Below are positions 36,180 through 41,903 of a stretch of 64,000 nt of DNA, piece by piece. The position numbers and the translations under genes are program-made. The notes beneath the pieces are model-generated. The model did no database searches, was not told the origin of the DNA, and worked only from the letters and a program-made list of their open reading frames with translations. Location of the stretch: NCBI GenBank assembly GCA_034687125.1, contig JAQGBZ010000048.1, positions 1 to 64,000 of the forward strand, read 5' to 3'. Numbering within the stretch: the stretch's first letter is position 1; every line of letters starts with the position of its first letter. Origin of the DNA: Neelides folsomi. Its lineage: Eukaryota; Arthropoda; Collembola; Neelipleona; Neelidae.

Positions 36180-39100
36180 ATGTCGTATAAAAATCATCGG
36201 TACGTTTTTCAATTGTTAAGTAAATTTAACTTTAGTCGAGGGTGCTCGGGTATTTCTTGTAGCGGAGAACGATCCGGCGGCGATAGATATGGAAGTGGTC
36301 GAGGTGGTGGCGGCAGCCGGGGTTATGGAGGCGATAGGGGCGGCGGGTCAGGTGGCTACCGGGGTTCCGGAGGAGGACGAGAGTCAAATGGGTGGGGCAA
36401 AGGTCGGGACGATGGACCTGGGAAAAACCTAAGAAAACCGAGATGGGAAAATCAAAATTTACAACCATTTGAAAAAAACTTTTACACGCCTTCTCCGCAT
36501 ATCGCTTCAAGGTAAATTGGCCAAGTTATATCATTCAATTACCCATTTTATATCGTTTAATTACATTATTATATCATTCAATTACATTTTAAATCATTTA
36601 ATTACATTTTTATATTATTCAATTTCATATATCATTCAATTTCATATTTGCATTATTCAATTTCTTTTTTTATATTCAATCAATATTTTTTTTATCAAAA
36701 AATTATTGATTTTGTTAGAGCCCAAACGGAAGTTGATGGATTTCTTCGAAACAACCAAGTTACTCTTAAAGGACGAGATGCTCCACGACCCATTCAGTTC
36801 TTTGAAGAATCTCATTTTCCTGAAGCCGTGATGAACACGATTCAGAAGCAAGGCTTTACAACTCCAACTCCAATCCAAGGTGTCGGATGGCCAATTGCTT
36901 TAAGCGGACGCGACATGGTCGGAATTGCGCAAACTGGTTCTGGCAAAACTTTGGCTGTAAACATTTAAAATATTTTATAATGAATCAGCATTTATTATAA
37001 AAATGTGATACAATATAAAGACAATTTAGCTAACTACACATTTTTATGCTTTCAGTATATCTTGCCTGCAATTGTACATATTAGTCATCAACCTCGTCTT
37101 GAGCGAAATGATGGCCCGATTGCCCTTGTTCTTGCACCAACCCGAGAACTCGCACAGCAGATTCAGCAAGTCGCCATTGATTTTGGAAATCCAGCTAGAA
37201 TTAGGAATACATGCGTCTTTGGAGGAGCACCAAAGGGCGGACAAGTAAAACAAGAATTAAACATTTATCTGCAATTAATTATTTATACAGAGACTAGTTT
37301 ATTTACCTAATCGAAATACTCTTTTATAGGCCAGAGATTTGGAGCGTGGGGTTGAGATTGTGATTGCAACTCCGGGACGACTCATTGATTTCCTTGAGTC
37401 TGGGAAAACCAATTTACTTCGTTGCACATATTTGGTCCTTGATGAAGCTGATCGAATGTAAGGATCAATTAAATATGCAATCAATACTTCAATTTAAGCG
37501 TTAAAGAACCATATTTGAACTAATGTATTGGTTTTATTTCATAGGTTGGACATGGGCTTTGAACCTCAAATTCGTAAAATTGTTGATCAAATTCGAGTGA
37601 GTTTCAATTTTATTTGGCTAATTTAATTACAAAAGTTATTAGCATTAGGAGTCAATTTAATTAAATTGTCATTCGAATAAATCCCACCAAATCTTGGCAT
37701 GCTTTCACTTATTTTATAGTGGATCATGAATGCTTATTGGATGGGAAATTAAACGTGGTGTTATGCCTTCGGTATCTATTTCTATTGAAAATAAATAGAT
37801 CCCATCCTCAAAATACCAAACATTTCCTTAATATTTAATTTACGATTAAATTTATTATAAGACTATGATTTCATTAGGAAAAAACTAATTATTATTTTAT
37901 TACTACAGCCTGATCGTCAAACTCTGATGTGGTCTGCTACATGGCCGAAAGAAGTTCGAGTTCTCGCTGAAGATTTCCTTAAGGATTACATTCAAATTAA
38001 TGTTGGGTCACTCACACTCTCAGCAAATCATAACATTCTTCAAATTATTGACGTTTGCCAAGAACATGAGAAGGAGAATAAGTGAGACTTGAATTTTAAT
38101 ATTTTTTATTAATCAGCTTTAATATTATTTTATTTATTTTATTCAAAAATGGAGAATTGTGTCTTGAACAACTTTATTTAAGTGTTAAAAGCTTATATTA
38201 CTTTATTACCTTATGGCTTGCTCATTCTTGACTTTTATCTCGCCTTCGTCTTCAACTATTTCTATATTGAAACACTTATTTAGTTAAATTGCAATTTCAT
38301 AATACTATAGGCTTCGTGTTGGTCGTAATGAATATTTGTAGGTGTAGGTTCTCAAATCTAAAGCAAACAAATAATGATTCATTTATCATATAAAATTCAT
38401 TCTTCAAAATCTTTTTTCAATTTATGTTTAATGACAATGCCCTTCAAGTACTGTACATATCCTACATATCTTTTTTATTGCTGATTTGACCCTATTTCTT
38501 TTTAATAATCTTGAAATTGACTTTATACTTTAATTTAACTTATTTCCATACTGCTTGACGAAGACACTTTTTTAACAGTTAATCATTTAATTGAAATAAT
38601 TCTCTCTAAAGTAATTATTTCCACTCCACTTAATTAAAAATGAAATTATCAGACTCCAACGACTCTTGGAGGAAATCATGGCAGAGCGCGAGAGCAAAAC
38701 GATGATATTCGCAGAGACTAAAAGGAAAGTCGATGACCTCACCCGGACGATGAGGAGATATGGGTAAAAATCTCGTTTTAGATGATGATTCATTCGAATC
38801 GGAAAAAACAAAGATCCAACTTACAAACCAGCCAAGCCACGTTTAAGGATAATATTTCAAATCAGCTTTCTGAAAAGAAAAGATTTAGTTCATGTTTAGA
38901 TAAGAAGGGGCAATGCTTTTAAATTATCTATATAAGACAAGACTTTTTTTTAAAATTTCGTCGGAACGACCTATTTAAGATTCAATAGAGCGGAAATAAA
39001 GAGCCAAAAAAGCCAATCTTGTAATTAAATTGATGTTTGAATAATTCTCCACTTTTGGATTCAAATGTATTTAAATGGTGTTGAATGTGTTTATTTAAAT

Positions 39101-41903: not shown

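Follow-up and report, generated by a model that had tools for sequence, protein, structure and literature searches.

Can a single helicase gene encode two versions of its own catalytic core? The question is raised by a locus of the springtail Neelides folsomi, in the stretch of 64,000 nucleotides of contig JAQGBZ010000048.1 that we have analysed (hereafter the window). A p68/DDX5-type DEAD-box helicase gene found there (36180-41903, plus strand, coding part and introns) contains two adjacent homologous exons, 8A and 8B, that correspond to the same segment of the protein. The best explanation, to which we assign a probability of ca. 0.68, would be that these exons are mutually exclusive, possibly by way of competing RNA structures. 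We infer that both may be expressed, that their use may be exclusive and that the structures may form and act. Use of both exons would mean that a single p68 gene supplies two versions of a part of the catalytic core in which ATP binding is coupled to RNA binding; the enzyme is active in splicing and in other RNA processing. A natural pair of isoforms that differ at only 13 sites would also reveal which residues around motif IV tune the helicase.

An exon pair in a p68-type helicase gene

The helicase gene is complete within the window and has 12 coding exons per isoform, which give an open frame of 535 aa; the introns used in the spliced model are GT-AG in every case. Pfam recognizes DEAD (residues 140-309) and Helicase_C (350-457) in both isoforms, the latter with nearly equal scores (113 bits for isoform A and 113.6 for isoform B). 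The closest solved chain over the entire core is human DDX17 (6uv0), followed by yeast Dbp2 (8ark). The scores of isoforms A and B were, respectively, 742.3 and 737.1 bits against DDX17, 620.2 and 614.1 against Dbp2, 350.5 and 354.7 against DDX3X (6o5f), and 379.3 and 379.9 against DDX46. The two domains, together with DDX17 and Dbp2 as nearest solved chains, place the gene in the p68/DDX5/DDX17/Dbp2 group. Of the identity p68/Rm62 proposed in the first-pass annotation, the p68 type is borne out by the Pfam, DDX17 and Dbp2 matches, but the name Rm62 goes by similarity, the best solved relative being the human protein. A search for relatives among genome, viral and plasmid contigs found no eukaryotic one; it returned two bacterial DEAD-box loci from the genome contigs, none from the viral contigs and 476 plasmid records, every one of them with <60% identity.

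In the spliced model, the alternative exons 8A (38653-38763) and 8B (39151-39261) lie on the plus strand between the constitutive exons 7 (37909-38081) and 9 (39496-39557). They are 111 nt each and 387 nt apart, with phase 2 on both sides, AG before and GT after, and either of them joins its flanks to give, with the 11 other coding exons, an open protein of full length. The segment that they encode (residues ca. 350-387) comprises the start of Helicase_C and motif IV. The first-pass annotation had described the pair in just this way, and it was also right that the reading frame does not force exclusivity: a transcript including both exons stays in frame (572 aa), and so does one that skips both (498 aa). 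Nor is exclusivity forced by intron length. The exons are identical at 75 of 111 nucleotides (67.6%) and at 24 of 37 residues. The 13 differing residues had been said to cluster before motif IV, which holds for eight (352, 353, 356, 359, 360, 362, 363 and 364), but another four come after it (378, 379, 382 and 386). A single one, at position 370, lies within motif IV, as had been noted (FAETKR in 8A, FVETKR in 8B).

When the 1388 stop-to-stop fragments of at least 25 aa in the window were compared all against all, 8A and 8B matched with E=4.5e-13, and among the 15 similar pairs listed the helicase gene contributes only this one and its two antisense shadows. Judged by these comparisons, chance similarity of the two exons is excluded. 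A tblastn search of the whole window, with peptides of A, B and DDX17 as queries, gave only 8A and 8B below E=0.1, and a third, decayed copy of the exon in the window was rejected accordingly. Exons count as candidates for mutual exclusion when they are homologous, of similar length and in the same frame, with splice sites that are compatible (PMC3923563), and what we find here are adjacent, internal, homologous exons of like length and the same phase, with compatible splice sites. Exons of this description can still be cassette or constitutive ones (PMC3923563). As a separate observation, GC3 is 23/37 in exon 8A, vs. 180/498 in the other coding exons excluding 8B (P=0.0025), and 13/37 in 8B.

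How old the pair is can be judged from the divergence of the copies. By the method of Nei and Gojobori, 15.8 of 22.2 synonymous sites and 20.2 of 88.8 nonsynonymous sites differ between 8A and 8B, corresponding to a dS of 2.2, which is near saturation and hence imprecise, and a dN of 0.27. The 200-nt intron flanks are no longer alignable, their alignment score being reached by 90 of 200 shuffles upstream and by 180 of 200 downstream. The near-saturated dS and the unalignable flanks point to an old duplication, and both copies appear to be under constraint. We also simulated neutral change in 20000 runs without indels, starting from exon B as a simplification, and counted the runs that kept the frame and the splice dinucleotides with no more than 15 residue changes. 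These were 1.7% at 0.3 substitutions per site and 2 of 20000 at 0.5; none was found at 0.75 or 1.0.

Comparison with DDX17 and Dbp2 indicates what each copy has kept. At the 13 differing sites exon A has the residue of human DDX17 at six (including those in EEIMAE and DDLTR), exon B at three (including that in FVETKR) and neither at four, so that each copy retains old residues that the other has lost. Over 39 residues, A and B are identical to DDX17 at 28 and 25 positions and to Dbp2 at 18 and 15. By these alignments and scores it is not exon A that deviates: its isoform scores a little higher than that of B with DDX17 and Dbp2, though lower with DDX3X. The alanine of FAETKR is present in yeast Dbp2 as well (FASTKR), and is thus a natural state and not a lesion. 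The motif IV phenylalanine, which is kept in both exons, is said in the title of a 2008 study by Banroques to be required for cooperative ATP-dependent RNA binding.

Splice signals and candidate docking elements

What could make the choice between the two exons exclusive? All donors of the gene are GT and all acceptors AG, and by eye there is no U12-like donor, so exclusivity by U2/U12 incompatibility found no basis among its splice sites. Crowding by a short intron was dropped as a mechanism, given the 387 nt of intron 8, and so was a distant branch point, as the last AG is only 17 nt upstream of the exon B acceptor. The individual splice signals are not equal. The pyrimidine content at -25 to -4 is 0.41 for exon A, the lowest of the 12 acceptors examined, and 0.55 for exon B, and the donors match the consensus at 5/8 and 6/8 positions, respectively. 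However, when counted back to the previous AG, the pyrimidines of exon A are ordinary (0.56, within a range of 0.50-0.71), and its acceptor has a branch candidate, TTAAT, at -20.

The first-pass annotation had pointed to complementary intronic docking sequences as worth a search, and this search gave a central-dock arrangement in intron 8, with moderate statistical support. What is new here is that this intron is predicted to hold two elements, each of them complementary to both outer introns (all positions are on the plus strand). Candidate element 1 (38812-38841) has a predicted partner in intron 7 (38310-38352, -24.5 kcal/mol) and another in intron 9 (39394-39432, core 39413-39420, -22.9 kcal/mol). 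Candidate element 2 (39034-39067, core 39041-39053) is likewise predicted to pair with 38135-38170 in intron 7 (core 38150-38160, -24.9 kcal/mol) and with 39354-39408 in intron 9 (core 39393-39402, -22.0 kcal/mol). The coordinates place one core stem inside the other for intron 7, and likewise for intron 9, so both stems of either state could coexist; as the same elements of intron 8 serve both partners, the two pairing states would compete. Pairing of the intron 8 elements with intron 7 would loop out 8A and leave 8B to be used, and pairing with intron 9 would loop out 8B, with 8A used.

For each 24-nt window of intron 8 we determined the best duplex with intron 7 and the best with intron 9, and took the less stable of the two as dock score, a test that was framed post hoc, after the list of helices had revealed 39041-39053 to be complementary to both. 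The best dock scored -20.0 kcal/mol, at 38816, and a second, separate element -18.8, at 39040. The former score was reached by 0/200 and, separately, by 0/160 shuffles, the latter by 0/160. Among 250 GC-matched control triplets of the same geometry taken from the window, which overlap and represent 74 distinct 200-nt bins, five reached the best score and none that of the second element. In triplets taken irrespective of GC the score was reached by 43 of 400, of which 31 were among the 54 most GC-rich (GC 0.36-0.60), and in the GC class that fits the locus (0.26-0.29) by 1 of 59. With windows of 16 and 32 nt, the best was reached by 0/200 and 7/200 shuffles, respectively, and the second by 0/200 each. 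Reversed introns scored -14.9 and -14.3, vs. the -20.0 observed, and the complementary strand -17.5. When each of the three introns was permitted to hold the dock, 2/160 shuffles reached the best score; docks placed in intron 7 or in intron 9 were unexceptional, being equalled by 35/160 and 40/160 shuffles. One element with two partners, as competing structures would have it, is in this post hoc sense found twice in intron 8.

Tests of single intron pairs gave only weak results, without a clear signal, which counts against the structure model. For whole-intron duplexes, shuffles did as well in 4/200 cases for introns 7 and 8, 175/200 for introns 7 and 9, and 17/200 for introns 8 and 9; for the best contiguous helix the corresponding figures were 17/60, 38/60 and 5/60. 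Neither do the dock pairings dominate the predicted folding of the whole region as a single strand (38082-39495), in which the state with introns 8 and 9 paired is not favoured. The fold is instead marked by a helix of intron 7 (ca. 38217-38245) with the end and donor of exon B (probability 0.79) and by another helix between introns 7 and 8, 38480-38489 with 38857-38866 (0.76), introns 8 and 9 being paired with a probability of only ca. 0.14. The free minimum is -268.8 kcal/mol; forcing element 2 to pair with intron 7 gives -265.7, a cost of ca. 3 kcal/mol, and forcing both elements to pair with intron 9 gives -258.1, ca. 11 kcal/mol above the minimum.

Apart from the docks, a pyrimidine-rich stretch of intron 7 (38213-38253) was seen to be complementary to the 3'-terminal part of exon B and its donor (39233-39276), with -28.5 kcal/mol. 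A value as low occurs in 29/500 shuffles of intron 7; as a possible mask for the donor of exon B, such a duplex is suggestive at best. A similar masking of the exon A donor, for which 101/500 shuffles were as low, was discarded for want of a signal.

Competing explanations and known systems

The pair of exons is real and intact, and probably used. Most likely, one exon was duplicated in tandem long ago, so that the opening 37 residues of RecA domain 2, motif IV included, exist in two functional versions, and the gene makes two full-length helicases that differ in this segment alone, by using either exon. The opposite view, that one of the copies no longer functions or that the pair is an artefact of assembly, seems to us very improbable, because a split allele would show more than 67.6% nucleotide identity, neither copy has lost its frame or its splice sites, and the simulation makes a neutral decay to such a state improbable. 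A less extreme alternative is that only one exon matters and the other is a rare cassette, or a constitutive second exon, tolerated because it is in frame. The forms with both exons and with neither are indeed open, and exclusivity is not forced. However, the conserved residues of the segment have been kept in both copies despite near-saturated synonymous change; besides, the first strand and motif IV would occur twice in the double form and be missing from the skipped form, so that both forms would be expected to be defective. We consider this alternative unlikely.

Much closer is the explanation in which both exons serve as alternatives, but regulatory proteins and splice-site strength account for the exclusivity, with the complementarity due to chance or to some other role. 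The poor pyrimidine content of the exon A acceptor, together with a donor one match poorer than that of B, would fit it, and it gains from the post hoc nature of the structure test and from a whole-region folding that does not support the docks. It has more difficulty with a central-dock complementarity that exceeds shuffles and GC-matched controls and occurs in two elements, and the pyrimidines of exon A are ordinary when followed back to the previous AG. This explanation remains a serious contender, with a chance somewhat below one half. Exclusive or alternative use as such we rate higher than the specific proposal that competing RNA structures enforce it, which, in view of the whole-region folding and the post hoc framing of the dock test, is tentative and falls a little short of even odds. 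It might even be that one p68 gene obtains two catalytic-core variants from a double competing structure that p68 itself unwinds, setting its own isoform balance, since p68 has RNA helicase activity and takes part in splicing; this is a speculation that we regard as rather improbable.

The diversity of p68-type helicases in vertebrates also derives from two genes, DDX5 and DDX17, unlike the present case, in which a single gene could encode two cores. The arrangement preferred here, mutually exclusive 8A and 8B, resembles clusters of two exons, which make up 102 of the 126 mutually exclusive clusters of D. melanogaster (PMC6071210). Like such two-exon clusters, the pair consists of adjacent homologous exons for one segment of one folded domain (PMC3923563; PMC6071210). 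On the other hand, the clusters named in these sources are mainly in channel, muscle and adhesion genes, and here it is the core of a DEAD-box helicase, with putative exclusivity. In the literature searched (titles and the beginnings of abstracts) no duplicated exons were found in p68, DDX5 or Rm62. Within the portions of text available from each source, helicase, Rm62 or p68 do not occur in the exon-cluster paper PMC3923563, neither helicase nor DDX occurs in PMC9741552 and PMC5740500, and helicase does not occur in PMC9013439.

Competing docking-selector structures have been described for Dscam exon 6, 14-3-3zeta, Mhc and MRP, with the dock to the left or right of the cluster, and in srp a bidirectional pairing gives two structures without a common site (PMC6071210). 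As in these cases, whether an exon at our locus is looped out or exposed would depend on which intronic pairing forms. It differs from them in that the shared dock would lie between the two exons and is known from one sequence, as a predicted pairing; a shared dock in this position is not described in the available portion of PMC6071210. The candidate central dock would make a compact test case for the exclusivity of two-exon clusters.

Alternative transcripts are known in the same helicase family from Drosophila Rm62 (PMC1885218; PMC4617972). It has sex-specific transcripts, of which the one of the female germline needs Sxl (PMC1885218), the splicing of its pre-mRNA responds to 11 other proteins, and its own depletion alters >500 splicing events (PMC4617972). 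However, these Drosophila variants are described as alternative exons and polyadenylation near Sxl sites, and not as duplicated homologous exons of RecA2 (PMC1885218; PMC4617972).

Other features of the gene and window

Two C-termini are possible for the helicase (41824-41944), by read-through of the last exon or by an extra splice to 41937. Intron 10 contains a patch (40560-40945) with a G+C of 0.44 and 11 CpG, vs. 0.29 for the whole intron. Short open frames start within it at 40658 and 40859, the second of which enters a strong donor (AAG|GTAAGA), and their peptides have no Pfam match; the patch is perhaps an alternative or nested first exon. Elsewhere in the window, two similar open frames are found on the minus strand (2-394 and 16612-18759, E about 1e-6), the 716-aa frame of this pair having no Pfam match at E 0.1. 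Between 21233 and 29142 both strands carry several diverged open frames that resemble one another and account for 11 of the 15 similar pairs listed. They look by eye like a local family of membrane-transporter-like genes, and one of the frames has a weak, sub-threshold match to EamA in Pfam.
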